Below are positions 6,594 through 59,812 of a stretch of DNA of 64,000 bases, in pieces. Numbering within the stretch: the stretch's first letter is position 1; every line of letters starts with the position of its first letter. The DNA comes from Bugula neritina (lineage: Eukaryota; Bryozoa; Gymnolaemata; Cheilostomatida; Bugulidae): positions 5,171,733-5,235,732 of the forward strand of contig OZ037772.1 of assembly GCA_964035545.1 (NCBI GenBank), read 5' to 3'. The notes beneath the pieces were generated by a model. It searched no databases. It was not told the DNA's origin and worked only from the letters and a program-made list of their open reading frames with translations. Position numbers and translations under genes: made by a program.

Positions 6594-7415
6594 GTGAGTG
6601 AAAATTTTCCTAAACTCAGGCTGTGGCCACGAACTCCCCAAGGGAAAGTATTTGTGAAATTCAGTTATTTGTTACACATCAGCACCTTACAGCACTATTC
6701 TCCAACTTTAAGCATGAAACGCTTGTTCTCTAGTCTAAAGTTTTTGGCAGTATTGGATGGCAGGGTTAATGTTATTAGTTTTTACTGCTTTCGAACACAT
6801 TTGTTCATTTACTATTTGTCCACTGTTAAAATGTAGCATTCATTTATAAGCTTTTTATAATCGTAAAATTGCATGCTAAAAGAAGTTAGCATAATTCATT
6901 ACTCCCCTGCACAGTTTTACTCGATGTGGAAGCTCCCTTATTAATAGTGAAATATGGCTTGATTACTTTGTATTTTTTCTCCTCTGAAAAGGTAATGAAT
7001 TAATTATGTTGACAGCCTGAAAGTGATGATAAAGAAAAACAGCCAATGCAATTATAAACATGAAGCTTTTACATGAATAGCTTATAAAACTCTATTTAAC
7101 GATTTTTAAGTAAGCCGTCTAGTCACCAAAGTCATGATCAAATAGCAATATATCTACTAGTGGCTATCAACTGACAACGATTAATGTTTTATAGATGGAT
7201 GGAAAATGTTGACTGTAAGCCTGGTAGAAATAGGGCTGTTGTTGACACTTTAGTGGCAAAGAAGAGTAACCAACAACTTTACACTTAGTAGGTTGTGTTA
7301 TACTTTGGAATATGTTGAGATTACTCTAAATTACATTTATTTTCAAATGAGCAAAAGAATTTGAGATTTATGCTGCAACGGGAAACGTTAGGGGCAAAAA
7401 TAAACTTAGATAAAG

Positions 7416-7598
7416 GTGTTCAATCATTCTTTTTTGTTAACAATGAAAAAAATCTTCATTTTACTCAACTCTTGTTATATGATCAGACTGGTACAAAACA
7501 TGTTACATGCTCTTAGGACTATTCAAAGTGAGGACAGTCTCATTCACATTGATACAAAAATATATTGCAATGCACAAACCAAATTTCAGGCAATGTAG
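7416..7598 (+). pseudogene. P-element/THAP9-like transposase scrap (copy B)
   Basis: Short frame with KIFILLNSCYMIRLVQNML, matching the same motif in copy A. Flanking transposase sequence is deleted on both sides, so only about 40 codons of the original domain survive. Confidence 0.6.
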
Positions 7599-7920
7599 CA
7601 ACAAAAATGTACTGTTTAGAGGCCAATAATAAAGGCGTGGGTAATTATTAGTTTAAAAGTTATGACAACAGTATTTATATTATAACATTAGATAATCACA
7701 AGTACTGTTAGTGCATGTTATTGCAATATATTATTTTTTGCTTATTCTGTAATTCTATTTTAATCACTTTAAGTTCTCAAATTATCCTCAGATCAACTGA
7801 TACTAGTAACTGATTAGGCTGTAAGCTGCTAGTCAACCCTTGGCTTAGCAATGACTTCTTATAAGTGTTAATCCTGACCATTTTCTCCAGGTAACACCTA
7901 CCAATATCCGAAGATTTTAG

Positions 7921-8881
7921 TTGCACAAAAATTACACTTATTTTGATGTTGGCCTGGTAATTGACTGCTTTTCAGTATTTTCATATCCAAATAAATGGCA
8001 TGTGATTAAAAACATAAACTTTGTTTGTCAAATTGTTGCCGGGCCTTCAGGCAAACACAGAAGCCGAGGCCAAAGAAACAGCAAAAGGGGCACCCCCTGG
8101 CAAGTCAAAAAATGCAAAAAGCAAAGAACCAGTCATAGGGTAATCACTAACCTATGGAAGGAAAAGATGATAAATACGACCGATGGAAAAGGCCTAGCTG
8201 AGCATGATAAGGTACCACAAGCACACCGATGGACACGAGAGCCAACAAGAATATTGAGCGGACGGGATTATATTAGAATTAATCACCCAAGATATAAAAC
8301 TAGTAACCAACTCGCTAAGGAATAGAATAAATAAAGGTGTTTCGGCTTTTTACCCAGTATGTATCAACACCCCACACACACTCAGTCACATATTACAACG
8401 ATCACACGGACCACGTGTACACAGGCACAACACCATAGTAGAATATTTATGTAACAGGTTAGAAAAACAAGGGTATGGGGTGCTTTCGGAGCCACATATC
8501 AGAGACGCATCAGGGTTGCTCAAACCAGACATAGTGTACTGGCACGAAGCCTCAGATGAGGTGAAGGTGCTAGACATAGCCATCGTCTCTGATCATGTGG
8601 CTCTGGAAGTACCCTATAAAGGCAAAGTGGATAAGTACAACGTGGAAAAGGTATGGAAATTTGCAAAAGAAGTAAGTCAAAAGAAGGTGTCGATAGCAGT
8701 ATTCATCATGAATTGGAGGGGAGCAATATGCGAGAAAAGTACGAAATTCTGTAAGGATTTCATCAGTATAAGAGAGCTACCAATACTGTCATTGCGAACA
8801 ATGCAGTATGGAGTTTATATCTACGACATGTGGAATAAATCGACAGTGACATTGAATGAGATCGAGGAGATTGACTGGTAG
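7921..8881 (+). pseudogene. R2-like LINE 3' end: RLE endonuclease (copy B)
   Basis: The frame 7921-8325 contains ILSGRDYIRINHPRYK and breaks near 8300. The CCHC region has lost the bases that encode part of the knuckle, and one cysteine codon reads TAC (FYPVC). The frame 8480-8881 is intact through EPHIRDASGLLKPDIVYW, VKVLDIAIVSDHVALEVPYK and a long C-terminal tail ending in NEIEEIDW. This endonuclease half is more complete than in copy A. Pattern and order match R2-clade elements, but no 28S rDNA flank is present, so any target specificity has been lost or differs. Confidence 0.75.
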
Positions 8882-9074
8882 GACAATTTACAATGTCATA
8901 TATTTTCTAAAATTTTTCAGTTATTACCCCTGAAAGACAGGCGGGTAAAAATCCCTTTTTTTTCAAAAGCCCCTCAGCCATGGGTTGACATCAAAATGGT
9001 TTAATGAACCTGTTCCTTCCTTTGGATAGAGGGAAGACAGGCGTTTAATTTTAAGCCAAAGTTCATGAAATTTG

Positions 9075-9245
9075 TGGCAAGAAGGGCAAAACTAAGTTTG
9101 TCATTTGCAGGTGCTTGAGAGATCATTCTGCTTGGCATTATCTCAACAATAAGTGTTGCAGGTGCAGGTGGAAGGGTCATACGGTCAAGGACTGCAGATT
9201 ATTTTATTGTATTTGGTGCTGTGCTACTGCAGAACACAAAACCTG
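9075..9245 (+). pseudogene. Zinc-knuckle remnant in copy B
   Basis: Same clustered Cys/His pattern as at 5060-5215, with minor substitutions (CCRCRWKGHTVKDC). It ends at the same stop position. Confidence 0.4.
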
Positions 9246-9892
9246 ACTGCAGCTACACACGTAGTTTTAGGCGAAAAGCTTTAGACAGTGTTTGACTCTC
9301 AAAACCCATTACCAGAAGTAGCCTATACCAGAATTTAGATTATGTTAGTGTTGCCTTCGGTAATGTAGGAATGCATTGAGGCCTCAAACGAAGTTGTTTA
9401 AGATGCCAAATTACAAAGTTGCAAATGAAAATAACCTATGTACACAACAAAAGGCTATGTGGGTTGTTCGGATAGATGAAAAATTCAACATATAGAGAAC
9501 GCTAGATAGTGAAGTTGATCTACCGCAAAAAATTTACAGAAACGAATGAGGACAATGTGGTCCACACAACAGCCAAGGAAAAATACAGTGTTGAAAAATC
9601 CATTTAATTATGTGCTAGGAACCATGTTCCACTCAGAATCATTTCAGCAAACTTAAAACAAGTATGCAGGGTAAAGTTATTTTTTCTAGGCTAACAGTTC
9701 ACCAGTAGAAAAATGGTGAAAGAGCTATGGAGCAGTCAGTTTACTGTCAGAGCTGTGAAGAGGCCCTTACAAAGCTTGATTTAAATAATGGTGTGACGTG
9801 AATAAGCATTTGAACTGATGCCAGGAGACATAAAATTATTGGCACTAGGTGGGAAGGGATTTTTATAGCAGAAGAGAAATCAAATTTGGTTA

Positions 9893-14754: not shown

Positions 14755-17471
14755 CTCTTCAGTATACACTTCAACTATGATTATCAGTATCAGCATGGCT
14801 ACCAGAAAATAATTAAGATACTTAAGAAAATACTTGATTTGGTCACTGAGTCTGACACTAGTATCAGTACTCTAGTTTTAAATCCTAAATAGTAATACTA
14901 ATAATAAAACTAATTAGTAAATACTAAATAAACTTAATAAGTAATTGTAAAAAGTATCAATTCTAAATTAACTAATATCATTTTTATGTAGGCTATTCAT
15001 TACTTAGTTTACCTCTATAAAATTTAATCATAACGCATCAGCACTGATGGAAAATCTGACAGTAACAGTCTAACACTAAGAGTAAGTCAGTAAGATTGAG
15101 TGACTAACACTAAAATACTTACTCTAAGTCTGACACTATGACTATTAGTATTTGTATCAGTGTGAGTATCACTATGTGACTATCACTATGAGTATCAGTA
15201 TGACTATGACTATGAGTGATACTGATGCCATTGGCATTAGTATAACTATAAGTATTACTATCACTCTATGACTAGGAAGCAGCAGCAGCACTGCCACTAA
15301 CTGTAAGTGCAAAACCAACATTAACCAGCTTATGAATTGAAAAGTTACACAGCGATACTTAGTCTTACACTTACAGTTACACCGACAGTGAGTCCGAACG
15401 GTGAGTGTCAGTGTGACTCAGTTTGAGTTTCACTTTCAGAGCGAGATTGAGATTACTGATTTACTTTTAGATTAAAGTGATTACCGTTAGGGCGTTACGG
15501 ACCTCAACTTGGGATAAAGTAAAGCAAATTGAAATTCCATTTGAACAAGTGATGACAAAGTTGACTTTGTTATAGTATAAGTATAATGCATCTATTAATT
15601 GCCGTTACTGACTGTCACTATCAGCGTGGGTGAAAACGAATGTCTGCGTGCTTGGGCTGAACTGACACTATAATACTGTTTCTACTGTTGCGCGAAAACA
15701 TGCGTAATTTCATTGGTTGTGAGTAGAACGAGAATAATTAGATGCACCGTATGGTTCAGGGTCACCAATCTAATGTGCACCTTTTGAAAAGAGAGCTGCA
15801 CTATTTGACTTTGATGTTGGTGCTGCATCTAGTAATTTTATCAATAACAGTTGGCTAGACGCCGCACCAAGTCAATTTTTTTCAATACCCGATTGAGTAG
15901 CAGAGGGTAACCTACAAAGCAACTTTCGCCAAATAAAAACAAAACGCGAGTAAAAAAGTTGAAGGAATGATAACTTCTTGCATTGATCAATGACTCGCCA
16001 AGCATAATTCCGCAGCTGCATTTTTTATCAAACAGAATGTACCACTTTCGGATATCAAAAGCATCTATATAATATGTCTATAGTAAAAAATCACTTCAGT
16101 ATCTCTGAAGCTTTAATAATTATTCCATTATTATTTACCATTCACAAAAGCATGCAACTATGCATTTTCAGCTAATGCATTGATTGATTATAGCAAATTC
16201 AATTATTTTACCAACAAAAGATTTTCATATCAAGATAACAATATAGTAACTATATTATGCTTAAGCTATAGAATATCTCAAAGCCTGTAGTATGCATGCT
16301 AATCAATTTCAAATCCTATTACTGCCTGAAGTTGCTGTATACACTATAATATTACACTAAAAGAATATAATATGATAAAACCTGCCAAAAAGTTAGGCTA
16401 AAAATACTATAGGCATGTTTATATTATTTTAGTTATGTTTCCAACCCAAACTTCAAACCACTGGCTAGTAACAGAGCCTATGTAGTGGATTAAATTACAG
16501 GTAATATAGCTGTAGCATTTAAAACAACTCTTTATTGATTAAATTGACAAGGAGTTGGTTTATACACTTGTCTAAATTGTTATCAATGGCTGTGAATTAA
16601 GATTCAGGTTCTTATTGAGGATGATAAATATACACACTTATAGAAAAAGCTCATATGCCTGCTGCAGGGATCTCTTGTCCCACTCTATTATATTATATTA
16701 CTTCTTATTGCCTGTATAATTTTGTGCTGGGTAAAAATAGTCTTGTCAGCTTTTTGAAGATAAAAACCTATGAGTCTGACTCAAAACAATTGGTTTTTAT
16801 ATAGCATGAAGCTGTAAAAAGCAGAGTATTGGCATGTATAAATCGAAAATACTTCACAATTTGCGTAAACATTATACAAGAACTTTGTCTGACCACACAC
16901 TTGTGATAATCACACGGAATCGTCTGTTTGACACGAAAACCCAAACGTACTCAATCAAATTTGAGGGAATTCAAACGAAATCCTCTTTGCTCATGGGTGC
17001 ACCCAACGAAGACGATGGACGAAAAAGTGCAATTAATGATGAGCACCATTTGATTGGTCAATAGAATTTTAGTAACGGTAATTATTTCATTTTTACCTTT
17101 GTTTTTGTGCTGTTTGGCAATTTTCTGCTATGAAGGCCAAGCCTTTATAGTTCTAATGTTTTATTATAGTAACTGTAAAACATCTAGCAATATTATAGCT
17201 TATCCAGGAAAGCACTGCTTCTATAAAACTTCGACAGTGGTATTTATATATGTATGTTAATATTATATGATACAATTATTCTAAATAAGCATAAACATCA
17301 TAAGTGAATCACTAGCATAAGGAAAGGCAGTATAAAATAATAATTATAATGATGAATCAAAAGCTGACATCACAACAGTAAATATAAACATGTTTACTTA
17401 ATAGCAAGCACATGACACAACTTATCTAATTTATAACTCTCTTTAAACCCCAATTAGTAAAGCCTCGCTTA
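14755..17471. other. Gene-poor stretch
   Basis: AT-rich sequence without convincing exons. A simple-sequence patch at about 15060-15270 is built on ACTATGAGTATCAGTATGAC-like units. A 76-codon frame at 16834-17064 (IITRNRLFDTKTQTYSIKF) has no recognised domain or splice sites and is not called. Confidence 0.4.
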
Positions 17472-17814
17472 GCCTAGGGCCACACGGTGCATATTTTCGC
17501 ATGCGAAAATTGAAATCACAAGTAGCAAAGGTGTCCACTGTGCGCGTTGAGAAAACCTTCGCACTTGTCGCTCTGCATTTTCAACGCAAGTGCGAATCGT
17601 CTCTGTCGTCGTCACCTAATTGGCTGGTAGTTATTCAGCGAGCCCAATTTCTTTATTTAATGCTATATTCCAGTAAATTGCGTTTTATTGAAAGCGAGTG
17701 CGATTTAAAAATGAAAGCTTTATTTATCACGCATCACTGACGCTACAGTGGACACCTTTGCTACACGTGATTTTAATTTTCTCATGCGAAAATACGCACA
17801 GTGTGGCCCTAGGC
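17472..17814. mobile_element. PIF/Harbinger-like MITE, copy 1
   Basis: A 343-bp element with terminal inverted repeats GCCTAGGGCCACAC... / ...GTGTGGCCCTAGGC, flanked by the 3-bp duplication TTA. No coding capacity. Related copies are at 42923, 58646 and 61176. A TWA 3-bp target duplication is characteristic of PIF/Harbinger elements, so these are probably non-autonomous members of that superfamily. Confidence 0.85.
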
Positions 17815-18562
17815 TTAAGGAGGGATCAATGCAGTAATGGAGAAGGTGACATCTTGAACTCTCAATTTATGACCTAAATATTCCTTAGGAAACTCAACTA
17901 AATCATGCTACTGGTATGTGTTTGTTGTTGATCCTAAGTACATATGAGGAATTTGTCTTTGTTTACTAAAATATTCCAAATAAGCCAATTACAAGATTGA
18001 CCTTGTTTTATTATATCTGGTCAGTCTATTATATTGCCTATTGTGTTGTAATATTATATATTTTTTCGATTAGTATAGCATACTATAATATTTTATTCTA
18101 CTGTATTGAGTTACCTATATATCACTACATTAAATGCACGTGTTAGTACACTTGTGCTTACTATGAAATTTACACACTGCCAAACATTTGATACCGATGC
18201 CAAGTTTGCTTCTATACTTCAGCCAAGTTCATTAGCTGCAGGACATAATATTGACAGTTTTGATCGACCTATTTTCGTTCTGCATTTTGACACGCATCAC
18301 TGCCTATTGTATTGAATTGCGCAAGAGTAGAGGCATGTAGATTGTATAATCTAGCCTATATATACTCAGTTAGTTTATCGCAAGCCAAGGCAGTTTCATT
18401 TTGGCTATTGTGCTTGCTTAGTGATAAACTGCGTCAGTCTAAGAGCCTATGTTATTTTACTTGTCAACTAAACTAAAGGACTTTGAATCATTCGCGGAGG
18501 GTGGGTATGAATAGCTCAGTGAATAAGCAGACGTGATTCTGAATAAGCTGGGATATTTCCAG

Positions 18563-24896: not shown

Positions 24897-25101
24897 ATCT
24901 CAGCAGGAAGTCTGATGGCCATCACCAGTGACAAAGACACATTAAAAGAGTGTCTTCTGAAAAAAGACACAAACGGATTCGAAAAGGCGTTGGAGGATAT
25001 TCCGGATGGGGAGCTAAGAGAGTTTCTGTTACAAGACGCCTGGACAGATCTCTTTAACCAGACTCACATTGGTCTCTTCAGCCTAGTTATTTTATGCAAA
25101 G
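24897..25101 (+). CDS. Ankyrin-gene exon with candidate start codon
   Basis: Follows ACTTGTTTCTTTTAG. Reads ISAGSL before the ATG at 24915, then MAITSDKDTLKECLLKKDT. It ends in phase 1 at CAAAG before GTTGGC. The G joins AT from the next exon to encode Asp. The encoded helices look like the N-terminal cap of the ankyrin solenoid and not a separate CARD or death domain. Confidence 0.7.
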
Positions 25102-25208
25102 GTTGGCAATCTTTCTGTTATATTTAACAGCAGGTTTATGTTATAGAATCTCTAACACACTTCACTTATGCAGTACTAAAATATTCAACTATATTCAATA
25201 TATGTTAC

Positions 25209-25299
<91 letters not shown>

Positions 25300-28200
25300 T
25301 AGTTTCTGTATTCTGGTGTGTGTGTGTGTGCGTGCGTGCGTGCACGCGAGCGTGCGTGTGTGTGTTAACTGTTATTTGTGTTTATATCTTATTTTGATGA
25401 TCTTTTATTTGCTCTTATCAATATTTCTGAGCCTTTACAAAATTGCTTTTATCAACAATGCTCTTTCTGTTAGATGCGGAATGGGAGAAAATATTCGAAC
25501 AAGTAATAGTTAAACTCTCAGCAGCTGACTGCGTTTCGATTTTGGAAACAGTTGACTCCAACGGAAACAACATCTTACATTATCTCAACAAACATCAACT
25601 GACCTCTACTGCAAATTTGCTATTAGACAACCTTTCAAAGGAAGTGAAATTTCATTTGATGACAAAACAAAATAAAGATGGAAATACGCCTTTACACTCA
25701 GCTGTAGAAGGAAACAATGTCATTTGGGTTAGAACATATGTCGAGGTGTTAAAAAGCTCCGAACCAGAAGATTTAGAAGTAATTTCTGAGATGGTCAATA
25801 ACAATGGATACAGCCCTCTGCATCTGGCAGTGAGCCAAAGCACACCAGATGTGGTGAAACAATTACTCAGCGATATGACACCATGTCAACGAAAAAAGAC
25901 CATTAAAAAATGTCGTGTTAAAGAATACCAGGAGCTGTGTGCTGACTTAGGTCAGTTTGAGTACATAAATAGAAGGTATAAAGAAAATTCTTTACACTTG
26001 GCAATCAAAAGCAAGCAAGAGAAAATTATCCAAGTCTTGCTGCAAGGTCTCCTATCGAAAGATCTACTCAGCATCATCATGGAGAGAAACTCAGATGGCG
26101 AAACAGCCGTTCATTTAGCAGTAAAGGACGGTTCTTATGAGATGTTGATGTTGATGCTAAAGCCTTTAGAATTAGGTGATCTTTTGGAAGCCCTTGATGA
26201 AAAGGAACGGCTCACCAATGAAAATGTCTTACAATTAATTATTAGAAGAGAAAGAATGGAGATGTTAACACTTTTGATTGAAGTTTTATCTAAAAGTACA
26301 GCTGCACTAACTAACTTTGAAATGCAAAGCTGGCCCAAAAATATTTGTATTGCAGCGTTACGCACAGCAATTGCATTCTCAAATCAAGAGGCATTTGAAA
26401 GTTTATTGAAAGTTGTGAAAAGTATAACAAACTGTTTGACCATTGAAAGGATTGGGGATGAACAAGAAAATCTGCTTCAGTATGTTGTGAGATATGGTAA
26501 TGAAGAGTTACTTGAATCGCTGAAAGGAGTTTTAGATGTAAAAGGGTGGAGTGATGCCTTGTTGTACTGTGACAGGGCAAAAAACAATGCCCTTCAACTT
26601 TCCATTGTCCATGCTAAATTAAAAGCATTACGTTATATGCAAGACACCACTAGTTCAGATCATGAAACTTGGGAAAAGGCTCTCTTTCAACAGAACTCTC
26701 GCCAAAATAACATTTTACATGAAGCCGCAAAGTTTGGCAACTTTGAAATTTTTGAAAAATTTCTGAAGTCATTAGGTGAAGAAAAGCAATTGGAAATTAT
26801 TTCCCAACTAAATCGGACCCAAGAAACAGTACTGCATATAGCTGTGCAACATAGAAACCCAGCAATAGTTGAAAAACTGTTGGACATTTTGAGCAAGGAC
26901 CCTGAGCAGCTCAAAAAAATATATACTTCATCAAACCCAAATACTATCCTACATCTAGCAGTAAGTATTAAGCATGAAAAGATTTCATGTTTTCTACTAG
27001 AAAATCTTTCATCAATTTTGGAAGCAAATTCTGAAGAGATTTTAGAAATTTTAGGCACCGTTAATAAAAGTGGAAACACTGTTCTTCAAGCGGCTGTAGA
27101 AACTGGTTCCACAAAAATCATTGAAAAAATTCTAAAAATACTAAGCCCTAAAACTTGCGAGCAATTACTAACACACTCAAATAAAAACGGGAAAAATGCT
27201 CTCCATTTAGCAGTAATGACAAAAAAGCCAAGTATTTTGAATTTGCTTTTAAACAGTTGTTCATTGATTGAGCGAAAGAAGTTACTAAACCAAGAAGATC
27301 ATGAGAGCTTTACTCCTAGGTCATTAGCCATAAAGTTCCAAATGATAGAGGTTGTTAGCGCTATACTTTACGCGTTGCACAATGAGGAGGTTTCACCTGA
27401 GCACAATGCCCTTCAGGAGGCAATTGGCAGTGCTGACAAAAAAGCATTTATTGAAATTCTGAAGGAGACGTCTCCCCACTTAAGCTCAGATCTCAATGCG
27501 GAAGATCCCTTGATGCACTTGGCCATACAATCAGGCAACCTCCAAATGCTAAAGGTTTTATTGAAGTTTCCAATTCAGAAATATTCTGGACACTCTCAGT
27601 CAAGTATACCATTTGCAGAGCAGGAAAACTCAGATGGTGAAAATGCTATATTTGTGGCAACTCGCCTAAAAAGTGATGAAGCATTGCGATTGCTGCTTGT
27701 CAACCGAATGCCATCTCTTGTTTTCTCTAGGAATAAAAAAGAAGACACTGCATGTCATATTGCAGCTGAGAAAGATGATGTTGAAAGACTGAACATTATA
27801 TTATCATCCCTTGATGCTAACTTAAAGCTCAGAGCGTTAAAGCTATGTAACACTGATAAAAAAAATGTTCTGTGCTCTGCTGTCGGTAGTGGTGGACTAG
27901 AGTGTCTTAAGTACATCATCCGAACAGTTCCTTCAGCACAGGGTTTGGAAGACTTAATTGTAGACCCTAGAGGCACTAGTGCCCTCAAGCTAGCTGAAAA
28001 ATTACATCACAATGAAGCTTTGAGAGAACTTAGTGGCCATGTTAGAGCTCAAAAAGTGCAATACAGTGATCTGGTACCTAAAATTCAACCTGGCAATGAA
28101 CAAGAGGTGGCAGATTTTCTCAAAACTCTGAACGTATCTGAAATGACAAATGTACTTGGGGAAGAAGACGAAAATAAAAGCAATGTTCTGCATGTTGCTG

Positions 28201-31200
28201 CTCAAGTTGGCAATGCAAAAATGATGAGTTTGCTAATTGAAAAGCTTCCAGCAAAACAACAAGTAGAGTTTCTTCAAAAGGCTAATGCCAAAGGTTTCAC
28301 TCCTTTCCAACTAGCCGTGGAACAACAAAATGAATCAGTTGTAAAAGCAATGTTGGAGTTGGCTGCAAAGCACAGTAGCAATGTATTGCTGAAATCCTTC
28401 TTTAATTGTTTACCATCAAATAATCAAAAGAAAATTCTCATGGCCACACCTGAAAGCAAAAGTTTTTTGTTTTACCTTTTAGCTTTGAAAAAAGTCAATG
28501 CGATTGGAATGCTGATAAAAATGTTGCCAGAAAAGGAACGAGTGGATGTCATTTTTCAAACAGATCTAAAGAGATATTCTCTGTTACATCATGCTGTGAA
28601 GCAAGAGAATGCCGATGCTTTAGATAAGTTAATCGAGCTAGTGAAACCAGATGATTGGGAACAGTTTATTACTGAGCAGTCGAACTACCGTGAAAATTTG
28701 ATTGTCATGGCTGTGAAGTTGCCTCAAACCGGCATGATAAGCAAAATTCTGAAACCTCTGCCACAGAATCAGAGAGTTAAAGCTATTTTATCCACATCAA
28801 GTAGGGAGGTAGATGTCATGAAATGCATTATTGAAAACACGAAAATGCTGGAATCATTGCTAATGGAAGCTGCAGAAAGCAAAAAAGGGCAAATCACCGA
28901 CTTATTTGTTCCGTGTGAGTACAAGCATCAAGCAATTGAGCAAGCTTTTTATATGTCGGTGAAGTACCAATGTGCGGAGATGGTGAAAGCTCTGCTAGAT
29001 CTTATGGATCTTGATCAAAGAAGAGAAGTAATTGCTGATCGACAAAATAAAAAAGGAAACAGCATTTTTCACATTTTATCTAGTTCTAAAAATTTGGAAA
29101 TGATCAGGATGTTGCTTGAGTCGCTCTCACAATTACCACAAAGACAAAAACTTGGAGTCATTTGTTCAGCCAACAAATATGGATACAACTCAGTTTCTTT
29201 AGCGGTGGATAAAGACATAGGAGCTTTGCTTGAGTTGCTCAAGAAGAGCGCGCCATTACCATCAGACTTACGGGAGAAAATTGAAAATGAAATTGAACGA
29301 CCCGTTGTAAAAGAAGAAAGCAATTCCACTTCTGAGGAACTGCTAAGCTTTCTGGATGATAGGCAAAAGACAAGTTTATTGATCCAGCAACTCCGTTTTC
29401 GTGCCGTCGAAACTAAGAAAGACAGCTTTCTAAAAGTAACAGGATGGTGTTCCTCTTTTGCTGAAGATTGTTCAGCTTTGCAATCCTTTTCTATTCCCCA
29501 TCGAAACCTGATGCATATTGCACTCAAAATAAATTCAATGAAGAGCGATGAAGCAGATAATCAGGTAAAACGTTTTGAATTAGTGTTGGAGCAGTTGAAC
29601 ACTAGCGAGATCGAACATATGCTTACACAAAAAGATGGCGATGGATTTTACGCTCTGGAACTATCTGTTATACATCTTAACCATCGCGTGCTGTCTCAGA
29701 TTTTTGCAAAAGTAAGCCCAAGATGCATTGTACAGGTTCTTACACAGCGTAATATTCGCCAAGTCAGCATTCTTGAGATTGCAGAAGAATTGCACCGGGA
29801 TGTGAAAACTGTGTTCCAAGATATTCCTACTGAGAAACAGTGGGACGTCAAAGTCCTCCTTTTACAGAAAGCTATAGAGTTAGAAAACAGCTCCCTCCTG
29901 GAATTGATGTGCACCAACTTTGAGGAAACAGTAGTTGGTGAGCTTCCTATGCTAAAAGAGAACTTTAGTATGTCTCAATCACAGATAAGTCTGTTGAACA
30001 CCGTGAGCGATACATACGTAATACCCGCTCCTCAGCTTAAAGCTAAATGCTACGCTGTTTTAATTTATGAATCCAGTTTTGAAAATGAAAAAACCTGCAT
30101 TTACCAGCTATTAAAAGACATGGGATTTGAGACAGCATGTTGCAAATGGGACAAAAAAGATGATAGAACCGGGATATTTGATAACATGGCTATCGATGTA
30201 TGGAAACCATGCTCATTGCTACTGATGTTTGTGTTGGGAGACAGAATAGCTGGAAGTGATAAAGTTGCGCTACAAACTCTGGAGGCTTTACACTCGTGTC
30301 CTGAAACCCCAATAGTAAGTATTGAAAATGTAACTAAGTTTGTAACCATAAAAATGCTTTTACCCCAATGCTAATATCATTTAAGTTGGACTTCCAAAAT
30401 AGTTATTCCAGCTAAGAAAAAACATTTTGCCACTTGATTCAGGATTAAATTTTCCTAAAAAGTATTCTATTATCTGCATAACTAAATTTAGCTAGCTTAT
30501 TAAGAATATCAAACTTTTTATTATGAGACTTTCCAAATTATATTCAATAAATTTAGTTATACAATTGCAGCAACAAACACACTAAAATTAAACAAGTAAC
30601 TCGGATTAAAAAAACTGATTCTAATATTAAAGCTTAATAAATTTCAGTAGTTAGCAATACTCTAGTTTCAGCAACAAAACTATGCGAAGCAAAACGTTTC
30701 AGTTTCTCAAAATTTTAAGTGCACTAATAACTTTTGTAAAACACTTTTTAATGTATAATATAATGAAATATATAGCATAAGCAAGTAGTAAAATGTTTGG
30801 TATATGTTGTAATAAAAACACTGTTGATTTGTGATCTTTTGTAGGTGTTTTTCTATGAGGCATCGAATTTGGAGACTGAAAGAAAAATAATTTCTAAGAG
30901 AAAGCATTCAGCTCTGATTGGTGCTAAAGCTAGTCAACAGACTGATGGAACCTTTCTAAGACAAGTAGTTCAAGAACTCAAAGCTTCTCAGGACAAAGAT
31001 ATTGTGAAATTGGGTTTGCAAGTTGCTCAGCGGTTGGGTGAACCTGTGGAATACTGGTCCTGGCTGCTAAAGACGCCAAGTCTGCCTTCTTCATTTGGCG
31101 TCGAAGGTAATTTTAAATACACCTTGCTCATGCATTGTGATGGAGTGTTTTGCTGATGGTGTATGGTGTAAGCTTTAAAAACTTGAAATTGTATGATAAA

Positions 31201-33549
31201 TGAATTAGCATATTATATTGCGCCTATAATATATAATTAGCAGATGTAATTTAAAGTTATTGCTATTCAAAATTAATTCTGTTTTCAATTTCAGAGGCAG
31301 AGGGCGAGTTTTCGAGTGACAGTTGTTCCGAGATGACAGATGACAGTTCTGAGTTTGATTGGCAACCTATACCATCTGAAGTCTACCAAAATATTTCCGA
31401 GTATGTTCAGTCTTTTTAAAGAAAGTAGATTATGTCTAATACATATATAATTGCCTTAAAATTTGTTTTTATAGAGAAGTATATTGTTGTCGCTGTATAA
31501 ATAATGTTTAAATTATTATCTATTTTCTTTCTCAGTTGAACAGTACTCTATTTTTCGTTTACTCCTGTAGAATCTGCTCAAGACACAATGTGAAAAACTT
31601 TGCGCTCACACAAGACCCTGGTAACTGGCAAAATATAGTAATCGGTGTTGAAAACAAAACAGAAGACTTAGAAAAGGACTTTAATAAGTTGAACAATGAC
31701 TTTGCATCAGAAAACATTGGCTTTACTATTACAGTTGAAACCAGTGGTTCCCACCTTTACACTAAGTTCCACGCACCTGCAAACTTAAAACGTGAAAAAT
31801 GGGAAAACCCAAATTGGGTTAATGCTAGTAGTGATTCGGCATGTGAATTGTTTGTTCAAGCTGTTGAAAGGAGGAGAGTGGCACCAGAAAATTCAGTTTA
31901 TTCAGTTGGCCCTGCCCACGTGGTAATTGATGAGGAGATGCATGAAGAATTTTCCAATGCTGGCCAAATTGAAAATGCTAGACGAGGTGTAGAACAATTT
32001 ACCACCAACCACCGCTGTGTCTTACATCAGCAAGATGATGGTGACAGACTAGACATTGGATATCCGCCATTGATGTGCTATCGGCTTTATTGCTGGGTCA
32101 AGGAAAATATTGACATCAACGATAACGATTCGTGTCCAGATTGTCGGGAATTCGGAAGGAGGATCAACCAGCTACGTATAGAAACACAATACATAGAAAC
32201 GTCAAAAATGCACCAGGAAATTAATGGAAAAGGAAATTTTGATGAAATCAGGCTATGCACTCACCTCATAATGAACGACATGATGTTCCTACCGTTAGCC
32301 AGAGATAATGCTCATGAGTTAAGTAGAGAATTACACTATAATAACATTTATAAAGTTAGCACAATAGGTGAACTTCGTAGCTTACGAGGGAAGACAATAA
32401 AAGTTAATAACTACAAAGGCCGCATAAGTGAGATATTTGTGAAGTATCGCCGCAGTGCTGAAGGTCACAACAACATTTTCGGATTCCATGTTCAATTCAC
32501 AATTACAACTGATGAGTAAGCATATTTACTTGTTCATTTTTAATCAATTTTGAATTAATTGCATTTAGCAAAATATGTCTTAAATTTATATATTAAGCCA
32601 AAAACTTTTCAGTAACAGCAGAATTGCACTTACAGTTGTTGAATATTGTATATAACAATTGAAAACTTAAATTTTTTAATAGGTCAAACCTAACTAATAA
32701 CAATTAGGTAACATTATTCTATCAATGTACTTATTTCTTTCTTGTCACTTTTCCTGTAAAAGCTTGAGAACTGAAAGACGTAATTGGAAAACTGAAAGAC
32801 GTAATTTGAGAACTTTGGTAAAACTCTCTAAAGAGACAAACATTGACATAGGGTCTCGGAACTGGACTAATCAAATGGCTCATTTTCTACAACATATTTG
32901 AACATATAGTAGGGGGCTATAGATATGAGGTTTATTTGAAAGCAATGTAGCTGTTAGCTGTGTGAAGAAAATTATGTTTTCACTAAACTCAAAAACCTTA
33001 GAATTCTATTCAATGTTAGAAATTAAAAATACATAAAATGATAAATAGCCTAAACATTTCAAGCAGTTAAATCAAAAACAAAAAATGTTATCTGAGTATT
33101 TAATTTAAAATATAGAAGTATAGTTTTTGTCTTTTCTAAGTGATTTTTCAGAATTTGGTGCACGGTTTCAATCAATAAAATTGTAATACAACATGAATTT
33201 CCTTAAATAAAGCCAGTGCAGTTTTTGAGTCAGAGTCTGTATGAATTTTCAAACACCCGAGTGTTACAGTACATGATATAATTATAAGTAATGAAACTGT
33301 TATTTCAGCTCATTGGAAAGAGGGGACTGTGGTCGTATTCTCTACCTCAAAGCTAAAAATCCTGAAACAGAAAAGGCAGAATGGCAACCATTGGGCATGT
33401 ATGTGGGAATGAATGAACTGACGCAAAACTTGAAAAGCAAAATTTACCGTGCTGTTTTGCTACACCAAACGTTCAGAGAAATGGAGGAAGATTATCCACA
33501 TCATATTAATGAAGTCCGTCTTTTTGGTGGTAGAAGACATAGACAGTGA
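24915..33549 (+). CDS. Ankyrin-repeat / pseudo-caspase / chymotrypsin-fold protease-like protein (six exons)
   Basis: Exons 24915-25101, 25474-30314, 30845-31106, 31295-31400, 31571-32515 and 33309-33549 join with matching phases (1, 0, 1, 2, 2) into exactly 2194 codons including the TGA stop. All introns are GT-AG. Predicted order: short N-terminal helical cap; about 30 ankyrin-like repeats (residues about 80-1570); a caspase-like domain (about 1584-1763) whose SHG and QACRG motifs read LGD and EASN; an acidic linker (about 1764-1800); and a chymotrypsin-like domain (about 1800-2193) with candidate His1915, Asp2035 and Cys2121 in GDCG. No signal peptide or membrane segment, so probably cytosolic. 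The exon at 24897 is open upstream of ATG 24915, so the true start may lie further 5'. The function is unknown; the layout would fit a ligand sensor coupled to proteolysis in immunity or cell death. Exon structure is strong; the domain names rest on motif recognition. Confidence 0.8.
25216..25366. repeat. (TA)n and (TG)n microsatellites in ankyrin-gene intron
   Basis: About 78 bp of uninterrupted TA at 25216-25293, then GTGTGTG/CGTGCG repeats at 25316-25366. The open frame through it is an artefact. Confidence 0.95.
25474..30314 (+). CDS. Giant ankyrin-array exon
   Basis: A single 4841-bp exon. Recurrent units such as DGNTPLHSAVEGNN, NGYSPLHLAVSQS, DGETAVHLAVKDGS, NPNTILHLAVSIKHE, NGKNALHLAVMTKKP, NKSNVLHVAAQVGN and KGFTPFQLAVEQQN occur every 45-55 residues, longer than the canonical 33, because acidic or helical spacers separate them. 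Many units lack the TPLH core. The last 90 residues start the caspase-like domain (KCYAVLIYESSF, IYQLLKDMGFETACCKW, SLLLMFVLGDRIAGSDK). The exon ends at GTAAGT (30315). The frame would otherwise run 19 more codons to a stop at 30374. Confidence 0.85.
30845..31106 (+). CDS. Exon completing the pseudo-caspase domain
   Basis: Follows GTGATCTTTTGTAG in phase 0. It begins VFFYEASNLETER, the strand that in caspases carries QACRG; here the catalytic Cys is Ser1683. It continues with a p10-like pattern: GTFLRQVVQELKASQDKDIV, then EPVEYWSWLLKTPSLPSSF, similar to the last helix and strand of caspases. The intron therefore splits the domain at the active-site strand. The donor is GAAG then GTAATT. Confidence 0.65.
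31295..31400 (+). CDS. Acidic linker exon
   Basis: Follows TTTCAATTTCAG. Encodes EAEGEFSSDSCSEMTDDSSE, then FDWQPIPSEVYQNISE, a Ser/Asp/Glu-rich linker that could be a phosphorylation or cleavage region between the two enzyme-like domains. Ends in phase 2 before GTATGT. Too short to be detected as an open frame on its own. Confidence 0.65.
31571..32515 (+). CDS. Exon for the N-terminal part of the chymotrypsin-fold domain
   Basis: Chosen start follows TTTACTCCTGTAG, because an upstream CAG acceptor (31535) would put a TGA in frame. Candidate catalytic His is in VGPAHVVID (His1915), candidate Asp in MNDMMFLPLAR (Asp2035). Several Cys (CPDC, CVLH, MCYRLYCW) could stabilise the fold. The segment LRGKTIKVNNYKGRISEIF, then FGFHVQFTITTD, resembles the strands before the nucleophile in invertebrate trypsin-like domains. 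Ends in phase 2 at GATGA before GTAAGC. Confidence 0.65.
33309..33549 (+). CDS. Last exon with GDCG nucleophile motif
   Basis: Follows CTGTTATTTCAG. Reads DSLERGDCGRILYLKAK, then WQPLGMYVGMN, the GDSGG-like loop and following strand of a chymotrypsin-fold protease, with Cys2121 in place of Ser. Ends HINEVRLFGGRRHRQ and TGA. GxCG is the nucleophile motif of 3C-like cysteine proteases, but the host exon context makes this a cellular gene. It could also be an inactive fold. Confidence 0.65.
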
Positions 33550-34749: not shown

Positions 34750-35098
34750 TGTAATGGGATTACGTAGTATAACAATGGGGTTGTCCCCTCTTGTATGGGA
34801 ATACTTATAAAGTATGTTCTACTATCCAATCAGAGGGACCGGAAGGCAAGGTTCCGGTCAAGTGACTGTTCGCGGGTTAGCCAGCAGAAACCATGTGTTG
34901 TTGAGAGCAAGGACTCGTAGTAGTAACATGTGTTTGTAATTGATCAGTGTTGTATAATCGTTTGATGTGGTGTTATAATTATGTTTATCGAATTAAATAA
35001 AGGTTATCGTACGCAAGCCAGACTATTGATTGCTAGTTAAATTGACACTAAAATACGCATACAATCCACGCTTGATAATTGCGCTAAAACTCACAACA
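34750..35098 (+). repeat. 5' LTR of the Gypsy element
   Basis: 349 bp starting TGTAATGGGATTACG and ending AAACTCACAACA. Contains AATAAA within ATTAAATAAAGG near 34993, a probable poly(A) signal. Confidence 0.95.
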
Positions 35099-35133
35099 GT
35101 GGTGGCAGCGGTGGGATCTTTGCGTATATCAAG

Positions 35134-36055
35134 ATGACAGAAAGAGGCACAAAGCTACCCATTCGGAGGAATGAAGGTGAGGAAGATAACGTTGCTATAC
35201 CTATAGAACCAGAAGTGAGAGTGCATAAGGAATGTTATGAAAAGAAGTACCGGCTGAGGGTGCCCACCTTCTCAGGTGAGGAGTCGGTGGAGCAATTCGT
35301 TCAGGAATTCCAAGATGTAATGGCCGCCCAGAATAGCATTGCTCAAGCTCAGGATGGCACTGTCAGACAAAGCCAAGCCATACGGAGTGGGACCAGACAT
35401 CGACGGGATCTTTGCTTCCCTGCGGGCCCGTTTTGGTATCTCCGCTGTAGATGCACGGGCCCGTCTCCAAAGACTGCGGCGTAATCCTCACACGCCGCTA
35501 CAAGAGCACGCTACCACGGTCATGAGACTGGTGCAGATCGCGTTCCGCGATCTGCCTCAAGTAAACCGTGAGAGGTACACTTATGATGCCTTCGTGCAAT
35601 CCATCAACAACTTGGGACTCCATCACCAACTCCTGGCGAGGGGAGTCACCACGGTCGAAGGTGCACTCGCAGAAGGAGAGGCTTACCTTCTGGCGAGTCA
35701 GCTGCACCGGAACCGTGTGACTTCTCGTCAGGTAGACATGGAGCCCTCCGCTGCTCCTACCGCTCCCAACGCGAAAACTCCAGCGGTGGCCAAGGTGACG
35801 CAGATGACGGTAGCATCGAAGGTCGCACAAATGACCGACATGCTAGCCGAACTGGTCTCCGCCTTGGCTCCTCTCAGCCAGTTAGACACTACCCATGAGC
35901 TAGACGGGCCACAGGTACAGTCACCTGGTAGAGGACACCCCTCTTGCTGGGAGTGCGAAAGACCAGGACACTTCCAGAAACATTGTCCCCGAATTCAACC
36001 AGGGTTAAACTACGACGGCCCGCAAATGCTCCCACATCCGGCGGGCCGCCGATAA
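35134..36055 (+). pseudogene. Gypsy Gag, frameshifted
   Basis: 35134-35484 encodes the N-terminus (YRLRVPTFSGEESVEQFVQ). A frameshift near 35340 moves the capsid to 35339-36055 (FASLRARFGISAVDARARL, RDLPQVNRERYTYDAF, then LARGVTTVEGALAEGEAYL). A classical zinc knuckle CWECERPGHFQKHC lies near the end. The frame change is a single-base event within the capsid and not a typical programmed site, so Gag is probably broken in this copy. Confidence 0.75.
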
Positions 36056-36302
36056 ATTCCCAAGGGAGGACACAGTGGCATCCGCCACGCCGGACGTCTG
36101 TCCGACACCTCGCGGAACGGCCACCAGGACGGCAAGCAGGCTGTACAAGCCGCTCTCCGCCGGTGTTCTCAATGCCACTCTGCAACAGGTTCAACAAACG
36201 ACGGACTGCAGAGTCTGCGAGGGGAAAGGCCCAAACACCGCCACATCCTCGACAGCTGGTCCCCAGTCGTCGTCAGAAACCTAACCCCTCCACCAGGGCG
36301 AG

Positions 36303-36720
36303 GGAGATGAGGTCACCCAAGATACCACTACATCCCCACGAGAGCAGCCTGTTTCTACGAGGACAGATAGCCGGCAAGCCTGCCAAATTCCTGTTAGACA
36401 CGGGCTGCACCACCAACCACCATTCTTCGACACATTCAGCGCTCAGATCTGAAGCAGGTTGGGACCGTACAAAGGCGATCATGGCACTCTGGCAGACGGG
36501 TTGTGCATCCCCTTCTACGGTATTATTGAACTCCCTGGGAGCGTCTGTGACCAGACCATCCAGGAGAGGTTCATCGTCGGACAGCTCCAAGAGGACGCCA
36601 TCCTTGGGATGCCATTCTTACAACGACACGGATGTCGCATCGATTTTGGTAAATCTGCGATGTTTATGGGCGGCAGGGAGCTCGCCTGTGTCGATAAGTT
36701 TGGCCATCCTCTAACGGGAG
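36303..36720 (+). pseudogene. Gypsy aspartic protease, frameshifted
   Basis: The frame 35944-36714 holds LRGQIAGKPAKFLLDTGCTT, the active-site DTG. After a frameshift near 36440 the downstream frame 36459 gives LADGLCIPFYGIIELPG, then RFIVGQLQEDAILGMPFL, the flap-to-C-terminal part of a retroviral-type protease. The two halves lie in different frames, so no whole enzyme is made from this copy. Confidence 0.7.
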
Positions 36721-38158
36721 AAGAGCCGGTAGTACGTACCTGTACTATGCCCGGCCACTCCAGGGGCGCCGTCCACCGCCAGGTAGACGGTGACCTTACC
36801 TCCAGGACGGAAGTTGTAGAGAGCGCGCACCCAAGCGTCCCACCTGCCCGCAGCTCTAACCAGCTGACACGGAGAGGAAAGATCTCAGTGCCATGCCTCC
36901 ACTCCCCCTCGGAGACGGTGAACCTACCACCCACCTCTCCACCGAGCTGTACTCCTTCTGTTCAAGAAGGTAACAGCAGGCCATCGGGGGAAACCGCGCT
37001 GAGAAGTCTTCTAGAGAGCCTGTCTCTAGGGCAGAGGACTGCCTCACCCCACGCCCCGCACAGCCCGGAGACTCGTGGGGGAGAATCAGACGGTTGTGTA
37101 GATAACAAGAAGCGCCAAGAGACGGCCACGTTACTACACAAAACCGAGGCTGCACCTCACCTTGGGGACCCTGACATGCCCCCAGAGATGGCACAGGACC
37201 TCCACGCCGAACCCGTCTCAATCAATAGCGTCAAGGAGCTACGACACCTACAAGAACATCTTCCGGGAGTGGTAGCCGACGTCTATCAAATAAAACGGGA
37301 AGGGCGACGACCCAGTGACAAACAGCGGAAGCTGGGCTGCGCCAAGTGGCAGCTGTACTGCCGACATTGGAACGCACTGCAAATCAGGGCCGGATGGTCT
37401 ATTGACCATATCTTTGGCCGCTAACCACTACCAGCCAGACCAAGAGAGGACCCTCTGTCCTGCCGCCATCCGCCGGGCATTGATAGAAGAGGTACACCAA
37501 CAGGCTCACGGGGGAGCCCAACAGGTGCTCACCAAACTACAACTCTGGTGGTATTGGCCTAACATGGAGCGTGAAGTACGGCGCAGAATTAGGCAGTGCC
37601 GAGTCTGCCGGGCCAGTAAACACGGCCGCCCTCCTAAGAAGGGGGGGGCGGCGAAGGCAAAATGCAGAGAGGCCCGGGCAGACGGAGACTGCTGACCTGG
37701 TCGACAAAACGCCCAGGATGCAACCCAAAGTTGTGGCGAGGCAGGAAAAGCCACACCCGTTCAGGGAAGTGCGCTCATCGCCTTCAGCGTCCAAGCTGCC
37801 GCCACCATTTCCTAGGTCAGAAACCGACCTGGAAGTGCAAAACCCCCCCACGGGAGAGGCTCTGTACGGAGATGCTGGGGAAGCTCCATTTGTCACAAAC
37901 TGGCTGGAAGCACCACCCAGGAGACGTGACCGTCCACGGGTGAGTAAACCGCCTTGGTTGGGGACGACACCCCGAAAACGGTGTTCTAGGCAAACCCCCG
38001 CGTACCTCAAGGACTTACCACGTGCCGTTCAGGGCGCGGTCAAACGTCCTAACAGGTACCTACGGGGAAGAAGGCAAAACATGGGAGTTATGAACACCAC
38101 GGGAATATCAACTTTTGCCTCGGCGGAATCTCAAAAGAGCTTAATACGCCGGAAGTAA
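36721..38158 (+). pseudogene. Gypsy pol remnant with integrase zinc-binding domain
   Basis: 36721-37424 encodes a low-complexity linker and VVADVYQIKREGRRPSDKQR, resembling the segment just before integrase. The frame 37315-37695 then gives IEEVHQQAHGGAQQVLTKL, WWYWPNMEREV and CRVCRASKHG, the HHCC zinc-binding domain of Gypsy integrases. A frame change near 37400 separates them. The catalytic DDE core is absent. The frame 37571-38158 ends with a basic Pro-rich tail (RDRPRVSKPPWLGTTPRK) like the end of Gypsy Pol. Reverse transcriptase and RNase H have been deleted upstream. Confidence 0.65.
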
Positions 38159-38377
38159 TAAGTCCTAGCCACGTTTCACAACCACGCTGCTCGCTCTTCT
38201 ATCGCATTGATACAGCTCTGAGTAGACGTACGTAGAAATCATAAACATACCACTCTCGTTCACAATGGCTTGCCAAGAATCGAGAGGTGAGTTAGTTATG
38301 TTTTTGGTACGAGGACTAAACTGTATTAATCAGCTTTACTGTAACAGAATAAGCTGGAGACTCGGTAATAATTTTTA

Positions 38378-39293
38378 GTGGTGGAAACTCACATTGACTC
38401 TAAGACTGAACAGTCTGTCACAGCAGTGTGTGTTTTCGATCAACTATTCGTTAACTGAGTCTCACGAGTATCTAATTGAGTTAAGTACCCACCAGGCTGT
38501 ATACGCCGGTCGTACTCAGTGTACCCTCTTTACGCTGTTATACTCTTACAGATCACACTCAATCGACCAACTTCGGGTCACAAGATCTACCCCCCTCTCC
38601 TCCTTGGATAACGGACCGAAAACAGACAACGAACTGCCCGTGGCACTGCGCCGAAGACATAAATGGGTGTCACGACGGACGGAGCGACAAATTGAAGAAG
38701 CCTGGGGACCAATTGGCTCACAACGAACCTGCCACGTGTGTTATGAGGAGCTTCCCTCACACCAAGGACTGCGGCTGCATGTGAATGTACACTTCTTACT
38801 ACGCTTCTGTCCGTGCGGATTTCACGACGTATACCCATACCTTATCGTGGCACATATGATGGACTGTTTCGCAGGCAAAGGCTATGTAGTGGACGCGGAC
38901 AATTACGATCAATACCTAGAAGCGGTCAAACCAGTGGTTAAGAAGGCTTTAACCTGGGCCGCATTATCCTCCGGGTTTTATACAATGCTAACAGCCGCCC
39001 GTCAGAAATCCCCTATGGTAAAAACGGTCGCTGCAATCATACCCCGGCCAGACAACACCCCCATGGAAGCATCAGATTCTCCAGGAGAAGCGACGCCAAC
39101 TCCAACCAGGCCTAACCGACTAGCAACCGTCGAGGTAGGACTCCTACGACTGCAGGATGAATTTACCCAATTGGCCCCCGACTTACTCAGCACTACAATG
39201 AGCCTTAGTGAACTGAAGGGCTCAGTGGGATGCCTTAAGCGTAGACTACGTGCACGGCAAGCACGACACTGGACTCAGTCCCTGCAAAACTAG
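38378..39293 (+). CDS. Third ORF of the Gypsy element, C2H2-like zinc-finger protein
   Basis: An uninterrupted frame of about 300 codons lies between pol and the 3' LTR. It contains CHVCYEELPSHQGLRLHVNVH, two residues longer after a gap than a plain C2H2 finger, followed by CPCGFHDVYPYLIVAHMMDC, a second Cys/His finger-like unit. The C-terminus (LSELKGSVGCLKRRLRARQA) is helical and basic. No membrane segment, so it is not an envelope protein. No ATG precedes the fingers in this frame, but an acceptor TAATTTTTAG lies at 38368-38377, so expression may need splicing from an upstream leader such as ATGGCTTGCCAAGAATCGAG at 38264 (donor GTGAGT at 38287; phase does not fit simply). Confidence 0.55.
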
Positions 39294-39574
39294 GAGCTGG
39301 AAGTTGACAATTCTACCCCGCATATCCTCAGGGTACTACATTGTGATCGTGTAAATGCTTGATCTGCCAACAACCGATCTGTGTGACGATCCAGGTCTCT
39401 CTCTCTGTAGCTGGCCAGCTGTGTGTCGGCCGTCTGGTTATCTTACTTATATATATGTCGTACGTTTGATATTTCTCTTCTTTTTCTTTGTGGATTTTCC
39501 TTACCTATGTCATTTTTGCATTATTATACTATTTTGCTTTATCAGAAAGTAGGGCTTTCTGCTGGTGGGGGTGG

Positions 39575-39921
39575 TGTAATGGGATTACGTAGTATAATAA
39601 TGGGGTCGTCCCCTCTTTATGGGAATACTTATAAACTATGTTCTACTATCCAATCAGAGGGTTCGGAAGGCAAGGTTCCGGTCAAGTGACTGTTCGCGGG
39701 TTAGCCAGCAGAAACCATGTGTTGTTGAGAGCAAGAACTCGTAGTAGTAACATGTGTTTGTAATTGATCAGTGTTGTATAATCGTTTGATGTGGTGTTAT
39801 AATTATGTTTATCGAATTAAATAAAGGTTATCGTACGCAAGCCAGACTATTGATTGCTAGTTAAATTGACACTAAATACGCATACAATTCACGCTTGATA
39901 ATTGTGCTAAAACTCACAACA
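39575..39921 (+). repeat. 3' LTR of the Gypsy element
   Basis: 347 bp matching the 5' LTR apart from about a dozen substitutions and small indels (for example CTCTTTATGGG for CTCTTGTATGGG). Preceded by a G-rich polypurine tract. Confidence 0.95.
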
Positions 39922-42475: not shown

Positions 42476-42922
42476 TACTCTATGTAACAAAAGCTTTAGG
42501 TGCTCTTAGAATTTCCCAAAATTTACTCTGCTAAATTCTAGCCAATAATAAATCAAAAAAATAGCAATAAATTTGCATTAAGCAATGGCTAATGATCTAT
42601 GTAGCTATATATAATAGATAAATGACAATCAACGCAATCAACTTTTTCTTTCTTTATGATGTTATAACTATAATATTATAGCTACTGGAGAAATTTTAAT
42701 CTAAATTAAGCTGTTTATACTTTAAAATACTTAATTGAACGAGAATTATTATTTATTGCTTAGAATTTAGATATTGTAACTTACTGGCTGACTTGCTCCT
42801 ATAAATTTGGAATTTTTAGACTCTCAAATTTGAAATTTGGGATGCATAATGAGCTATGGAACTTTATAATACATGTATATATAGATATGAATAACAAAAA
42901 CATATAAGCATATTATTACTAA

Positions 42923-43266
42923 GCCTAGGGCCACACGGTGCGTATTTTCGCATGCAAAAATTGAAATCACAAGTAGCAAAGGTGTCCACTGTAACATCAG
43001 TGGTGCGTGATAAATAAAGCTTTCATTTTTAAATCGCACTCGCTTTCAATAAAATGCAATTTACTGGAATGTAGCACTAAAATAAAGAAATTGGGCTCGC
43101 TGAATAACTAACAGCCAATTAGGTGACGACGACAGAGACGATTCGCACTTGCGTTGAAAGTGCTGAGCGACAAATGCGAATGTTTTCTCAATGCGCACAG
43201 TGAACACCTTTGCCACTTGTGATTTCAATTTTCGCATGCAAAAATACGCACCGTGTGGCCCTAGGC
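42923..43266. mobile_element. PIF/Harbinger-like MITE, copy 2
   Basis: 344 bp with GCCTAGGGCCACACGGTGCG and its inverse at the ends, flanked by TAA on both sides. Internal sequence is inverted relative to copy 1. Confidence 0.85.
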
Positions 43267-43941
43267 TAATGTAATTACATCCTGGATTTTTAGTAGCTAA
43301 AATATACTCATAAAATCGGATCTATATTTACCACTGTTTATATTTTATAATACTCAAGAGGAGAACTTTCATAGCTTAAAATAGTGTAACTTACTGGCTG
43401 AACATAAGTTGGTCGTGATGCTTCTGAAATTTTTTCGAAACGTTCTATTGGCAACTCTGAGTTGGGTGTGAATGAGTGCAGCAGTTTAAGTGTCTCACAT
43501 TTGGAGTTGAGGAAGTAAGTTCAGAACTCTTATTTACTACACTGAATAACCCCCAACTGGGAGCTGCTTATATGAATTTGAGAACTTCAAATCAGCATAA
43601 CCAGGGATCCAACCAAATAGCTATCCAACTGTGCAAATGAGCTAATCAAGCCCCTCCCGCCAACCAACACAGATTGGTTCCTAGTATAGTACTAGTATAG
43701 CTTTATGTGTGTATATTATCTTCTATCTTTCAGACACATCATTATAAGTATATGGTGTACTTTATTTAGGCATGCTTCTTTATACCGCGTCAAATTCTGA
43801 ATTATTTGTTGATGAGTTTCAATGAAACCTAAACATTAACTTTGAAAGCCAAAATAGGCCAAGAAGCTGGTAAATTGTACTATATGGCTTCAAAATAGTA
43901 TAATTTAGGAGGTAAATACTTGCATTTGACCTAAAAGCTAT

Positions 43942-44148: not shown

Positions 44149-59812
<15,664 letters not shown>

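Follow-up and report, generated by a model that had tools for sequence, protein, structure and literature searches.

The locus described here raises the question of what a single animal protein might do with a long ankyrin solenoid towards its N terminus, a peptidase-like domain at its C terminus and a domain of doubtful kinship between the two. It lies on the plus strand of a 64,000-nucleotide stretch of the Bugula neritina genome (contig OZ037772.1 of assembly GCA_964035545.1, positions 5,171,733 to 5,235,732), which is referred to below as the window and whose own numbering is used throughout. A preliminary description of the window had proposed an ankyrin solenoid, a pseudo-caspase and a chymotrypsin-fold domain in one polypeptide encoded between 24897 and 33549. 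Our analyses indicate that the whole is best explained, with moderate confidence, as a C-terminal His-Asp-Cys chymotrypsin-like peptidase that is regulated by the ankyrin solenoid and belongs to a lineage-specific family.

Gene structure and the ankyrin solenoid

The gene consists of six coding exons and five introns, all of the latter GT-AG and consistent in phase, and its spliced coding length of 6582 nt corresponds to 2193 codons and a single terminal stop in one frame. This bears out the single frame of 2194 codons with matching phases proposed earlier. The start proposed at 24897 held only in part: the exon is open back to that position, which is the first base past an acceptor, whereas the ATG lies at 24915. 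Because the frame of exon 1 is open back to the acceptor, further upstream exons are possible and the 5' end of the model is provisional. The exons and the domains that they encode are the following.

24915..25101, plus strand: exon 1, coding part (residues 1-63); GT-AG, phase match; putative start codon
25474..30314, plus strand: exon 2 (residues 63-1676); ankyrin array and first half of the middle domain
25554..29213, plus strand: ankyrin-like solenoid (residues 90-1309); holds 28 of the 29 repeat matches
30009..31106, interrupted by the intron at 30315-30844, plus strand: middle domain (residues ~1575-1764); end of exon 2 and exon 3
30845..31106, plus strand: exon 3 (residues 1677-1764); phase match; codon score 13.1
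31295..31400, plus strand: exon 4, acidic Ser-rich linker (residues 1764-1799); 106 nt
31571..32515, plus strand: exon 5 (residues 1799-2114); N-terminal part of the peptidase-like domain; matched by an 86% identical relative (P0001, see below) and by paralogues
33309..33549, plus strand: exon 6 (residues 2114-2193 and stop); nucleophile motif, then strands

Exon 2 lies inside an open frame of 1647 codons, a length far above that expected by chance: 20 shuffles of the window gave no stop-free run longer than 171. With a cut-off of 9, a codon model trained on exon 2 also recovered exons 1, 3, 5 and 6 (scores 9.1, 13.1, 18.0 and 9.6) and missed the 106-nt exon 4; 13 other segments of the window passed the same cut-off, several of them within transposable elements. 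The acidic linker described earlier proved to be a separate exon, exon 4, with 11 Asp or Glu and no Lys or Arg across its 36 residues.

The ankyrin solenoid is real. Pfam Ank_2 matched with an E value of 1.6e-65, passing its cut-off, and a self-trained repeat model gave 29 matches at a loose cut-off, seven of them below 8 bits. The commonest step between repeats is 39 residues (11 of 28 steps, with 40 residues in two more), and the canonical 33-residue ankyrin period was not found. One extra weak repeat match is present at residues 1526-1541. The earlier estimate of about 30 ankyrin-like repeats is a fair one, since three of the steps are as long as 93, 106 and 223 residues and probably contain repeats that the model did not match.

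The C-terminal peptidase-like domain and its paralogues

In chymotrypsin the catalytic triad follows the order His, Asp, nucleophile, within motifs of the shapes seen here. Residues of this type were located in the C-terminal domain by aligning the window copy with 15 paralogues from the same genome (16 rows).

31917..31919, plus strand: catalytic-type His1915 (PAHVV); His in 16 of 16 aligned rows
32133..32264, plus strand: putative zinc site C1987, C1990, C2028 and H2030; loose pattern before the Asp, 15 of 16 rows
32277..32279, plus strand: catalytic-type Asp2035 (IMNDMMFLPL; NDIALLPI-like in paralogues); Asp in 16 of 16 rows
33328..33330, plus strand: nucleophile-type Cys2121 in GDCG; Cys in 13 and Ser in 3 of 16 rows

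The three residues thus stand in PA-clan order and are conserved across the paralogue family, with Ser replacing Cys at position 2121 in L042, L045 and L048 and with Gly2119 and Gly2122 invariant. L049, a more diverged copy outside the alignment, reads TAAH, DTALLAL and SDSGAPVLVF. A pattern running from GDCG to PLGMYVG, composed after the sequence had been inspected, did not occur in any of 50,000 shuffled versions of residues 1801-2193, nor did E. coli frames totalling 26,573 residues contain it. Ahead of the Asp, a C-x(2-5)-C...C-x-H pattern is probably a zinc site: the C2028 column is Cys in all 16 rows, the H2030 column His in 15 and the C1990 column Cys in 15, and the first Cys does not align across rows.

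The paralogues were drawn from a genome of 215.8 Mb in 295 contigs. Counted per exon, the C-terminal domain has 23 matches in it at E<=0.001, the window's two included, and the last exon has 20 at E<=0.1, again with the window's own, of which two are weaker than E 0.01. Eighteen paralogue regions were retrieved, and 15 copies could be joined for the alignment; L046 and L047 were excluded because they showed no long exon 5 frame and L049 because of its divergence, and of the two tandem copies in L042 only the first was used. In four of the 18 regions (L035, L037, L038 and L039) the peptidase domain is preceded by an ankyrin array, and in L037-L039 the 39-residue period is readable by eye. This count is a lower bound, since the regions reach at most ~8 kb upstream. 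Several paralogues also carry acidic frames ahead of exon 5, some of which resemble the DWQPIP of the window (DWETLPE in L037 and L039, GWKPIP in L042). The family tree places the window copy beside L040 and L041 with support of 96/95, and long branches lead to all three. The stretches fetched for L040 and L041 showed no ankyrin. Upstream of exon 5, at 2967-3506, L041 also has what appears to be an incomplete repeat of the domain's beginning, together with a B-box-like stretch rich in Cys and His; Pfam found no match there.

As judged from these sequences, the copies constitute a family, specific to this lineage, of close to 20 genes that differ in their N-terminal parts. The preliminary description had known of no family with this architecture; indeed none was found described in the open literature within the terms searched and the portions of the sources available, yet the statement was incomplete, given the 20 last-exon matches in the genome and the four regions with ankyrin upstream. 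Exon 5 gave ratios of non-synonymous to synonymous substitution rates (dN/dS) of 0.18-0.29 in four close pairs among five paralogues, and these close paralogues are under purifying selection in this exon. The window copy was left out of this comparison because it is too diverged from the others. The evidence supports a new chymotrypsin-like (PA-type) family with a mostly Cys nucleophile, and the case for such a C terminus is stronger than originally claimed, H1915, D2035 and C2121 being conserved positions of a paralogue family.

Searches in a protein collection (5.8 billion) returned a single relative, P0001, which shares 86% identity with exon 5 and lies on a contig of 6691 nt (sources jgi and lgn). 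Its frame also runs through the last part of intron 4 and agrees there with the translation of the window at 17 of 20 positions; P0001 is therefore a very close sequence. Divergence from it is uneven. Only four of 130 residues differ at 1859-1988, the stretch with the His, as against 31 of 124 after it (Fisher P 2e-7, for a border between slow and fast stretches picked after viewing the data); compared with the intron peptide (three of 20 differing), the first stretch gives P 0.05 and the second P 0.41. This jump inside exon 5 (31572-32513 against P0001) could reflect fast evolution, conversion or relaxed constraint.

The 16-row profile was compared by hhalign with trypsin-type sequences, with E. 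coli DegP/Q/S and with combined profiles. The best stretch was the nucleophile motif against the trypsin-type sequences and the Asp motif against DegP/Q/S, and in each of the three tests the score of the family profile was reached by none of 59 column shuffles.

Several results weigh against a regulated peptidase of this kind. The hhalign probabilities are low (1-4%) and the spans cover only ~20 columns. Residues 1800-2193 have no significant match in Pfam, NCBIfam, PADLOC or the PDB; a 12-row family profile against the PDB and family members against Pfam likewise gave nothing significant, the listed rows being at chance level, and L049 matched nothing in Pfam or the PDB. Motifs, rather than a significant database match, are thus the basis of the PA assignment. 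An AlphaFold2 model of exon 5 alone had a predicted local distance difference test score (pLDDT) of 38, and its Foldseek list was noise. The fast-changing part of exon 5 might reflect relaxed constraint, and the frame of P0001 continues, with differing residues, beyond the exon 5 donor site of the window, so that splicing of P0001 at this donor cannot be judged. In prokaryote genome contigs, viral contigs and phage records, nothing significant was found for the C-terminal domain or exon 5.

Alternative readings and the middle domain

That the model fuses two genes, or that the locus is a decaying copy, is very improbable. The donor of intron 1 is weak (GTTGGC), and AATAAA words occur inside intron 2, though these are expected in AT-rich DNA. 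However, every frame is open, every phase matches and exon 5 has no usable start, the first Met of its frame coming only at residue 1922, beyond the conserved His. Since several paralogues also repeat the order of acidic exon, exon 5 and last exon, a split is unlikely, and the single gene model is confirmed. A different objection accepts the chymotrypsin fold and takes the C-terminal domain for a binding module rather than an enzyme. The window copy does read GDCGR where classical peptidases have GDSGG, the Asp that precedes the nucleophile is replaced by His and Gln in L035 and L048, and an acid and a base might persist for structural reasons. We consider this unlikely, because the invariant His and Asp (16 of 16 rows each) and a Cys exchanged only for Ser, the other usual nucleophile, are what catalysis would demand. 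The protein could also be a large scaffold built of ankyrin repeats that has a housekeeping function and no part in defence or cell death. Ankyrin scaffolds are common, and a search of the defence library PADLOC gave no match. Some 20 diverged copies with changing upstream parts and long branches nevertheless resemble a lineage-specific expansion of the immune kind, and a housekeeping role appears quite unlikely.

The middle domain looks alpha/beta. In a local hhalign alignment it is in line with caspases up to the catalytic strand and, if this alignment is right, Leu1650 and Ser1683 occupy the places of the catalytic His and Cys. A caspase-like fold is possible but doubtful. Were the domain a dead caspase, a single chain would combine a sensor and a second protease with a pseudo-caspase that, like cFLIP, pairs with an active caspase, a reading that we regard as tentative. 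It draws on ordered caspase blocks, which scored 37.0, a value equalled in 41 of 1000 shuffles, one of 225 E. coli tiles and one of 27 of the protein's own ankyrin tiles, and on the local hhalign score, equalled in 17 of 400 shuffles. Blocks for TIR domains carried no signal (638 of 1000 shuffles and 97 of 225 E. coli tiles as good). The ankyrin arrays ahead of caspase exons elsewhere in the genome and the likely pseudo-caspase L050, both described below, also favour it, and cFLIP-L is a precedent (PMC11121540). Against it, neither Pfam nor the PDB gave a match at E<=10, no second copy was found in the genome at E<=1, three of 24 own ankyrin tiles did as well in local hhalign and 140 of 400 shuffles did as well in global mode. 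Adding caspases from the same genome left 18 of 200 shuffles as good. Against the five Ank39-caspases introduced below, 84 of 250 shuffles and 41 of 136 E. coli tiles were as good, against all caspases 59 of 250 and 26 of 136, and when seven caspases were used in an hmmsearch of 2000 shuffles, 1446 were reported and 190 of these did equally well. The pseudo-caspase without a dyad that had been proposed is thus not established, the comparisons with Pfam, the PDB, the genome's own caspases and profiles being at best marginal.

Other routes to an identity were equally unproductive. There was no PADLOC or NCBIfam match for the middle domain, its exon 2 part, searched in the protein collection, returned nothing significant, and AlphaFold2 on the tail of exon 2 reached a pLDDT of 47 with a Foldseek list that was noise. 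For TIR, hmmsearch was near chance (109 of 1637 as good), hhalign was equalled in 24 of 400 shuffles locally and eight of 400 globally, and Pfam had no TIR match in the domain. On the whole, TIR is no better an assignment than caspase.

The genome holds an expansion of the caspase family, with at least 176 matches to caspase exons (PF00656), many of them on C1 at 32-35 Mb and on C6. There are also at least 154 matches to 39-residue ankyrin arrays, and at several places such arrays lie directly upstream of caspase exons. Five of these loci (L058-L062, the Ank39-caspase loci) run from an ankyrin frame through a short shared exon (such as YLDERNRDVDI) to caspase exons, and each pair is likely to be one gene. 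In L058, Pfam confirms both the ankyrin and the caspase part. The His motif is THG or SHG in all five, and the Cys motif is QAC in three, QSC in L058 and QAD in L062. Other ankyrin arrays, for example those on C3 at 15-17 Mb, have no adjoining caspase match among the matches listed. The best PF00656 score among the matches listed belongs to L050 (G000:C4:5000900-5001900), which is likely a pseudo-caspase because FFDAS replaces the QAC of active caspases.

Proposed working and comparison with known systems

The protein is large and probably intracellular. Its ankyrin solenoid, with a 39-residue period, would bind or sense a trigger, and this binding would free or cluster the cysteine peptidase. 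The alpha/beta-looking middle domain may serve as an oligomerisation, pairing or regulatory module, and the acidic, disordered tether would lend reach to the peptidase. The effector would be the C-terminal chymotrypsin-like domain, with its candidate His-Asp-Cys triad and structural zinc site. Sensing, activity and an immune or cell-death setting are suggested because the family is expanded, its upstream parts change and the Ank39-caspase loci run parallel to it; the protease family probably has a role in immunity or cell death. A bolder version, in which sensor solenoid, dead caspase and active Cys peptidase fuse the Ank39-caspase and Ank39-PA systems in one chain and caspase docking releases the peptidase, is improbable. 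If true, the protein would be a switch for death or defence in one chain: docking of an endogenous caspase on its pseudo-caspase would set the cysteine peptidase free.

Chymotrypsin-type peptidases with a Cys nucleophile are, to our knowledge, known mainly from viruses. Picornaviral 2A and 3C have a chymotrypsin fold with a Cys nucleophile in a GDCG-type motif, 2A has a Cys/His zinc site, and structures of both are deposited in the PDB. The domain studied here is like both in its GDCG-type Cys nucleophile and like 2A in its putative Cys/His zinc site, whereas the protein is much larger, belongs to a multigene family on animal chromosomes and has no PDB match. A mostly Cys-type, likely zinc-binding family that has multiplied in an animal genome and acquired ankyrin sensors would be a new host protease machine.

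Among PA-clan peptidases (trypsin, HtrA/Deg, FAM111A), the likeness lies in the order of His, Asp and nucleophile and in the shapes PAH, NDIAL and GD(C/S)G followed by P.GM..G. The differences are the lack of a significant sequence match, the mostly Cys nucleophile, the putative zinc site, and an ankyrin solenoid where cellular examples have ubiquitin-like (UBL) or PDZ domains. In FAM111A the peptidase is likewise C-terminal (PMC9798293).

In the Ank39-caspase loci, as in the window, a short shared exon and a protease domain come after ankyrin arrays of 39-residue period. They differ in having recognisable caspase exons, to which the middle domain of the window is not measurably closer than shuffles are. 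Set beside these loci, the family would be an example of two unrelated protease folds under the control of the same solenoid design, and sensor-to-protease coupling in invertebrate immunity would become testable.

A dead caspase fold acting as a regulator would be the point in common with cFLIP-L (PMC11121540), but here caspase identity is unproven, and Pfam gave no death-effector domain in the pieces scanned. The resemblance to TPR-CHAT of Craspase, which the preliminary description had called conceptual, is just that: both join an alpha-helical solenoid to a protease, yet the repeat and the protease fold are different and TPR-CHAT has a CRISPR partner (PMC9729208). Bacterial conflict systems combine caspase-like or trypsin-like peptidases with adaptor domains, and such adaptors have metazoan counterparts (PMC8195603).

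Elsewhere in the window, 34794-39876 is a probable long terminal repeat (LTR) retroelement, with 259-nt direct repeats that are 98% alike and flank an integrase zinc-binding frame, and an open frame with DUF1759 at 86-1894 is probably a retroelement gene. Repeated stretches at 2683-5584 and 7166-9565, ~4 kb apart, are 89-98% alike. A Thr/Ser-rich, mucin-like frame of 1016 codons (50228-53278) contains a 234-nt repeat in five copies, and at 54364-55040 there is a perfect inverted repeat of 325 nt with a 27-nt spacer. A short element bounded by terminal inverted repeats, probably a miniature inverted-repeat transposable element, occurs four times, at 17469-17829, 42920-43269, 58640-58995 and 61173-61594.

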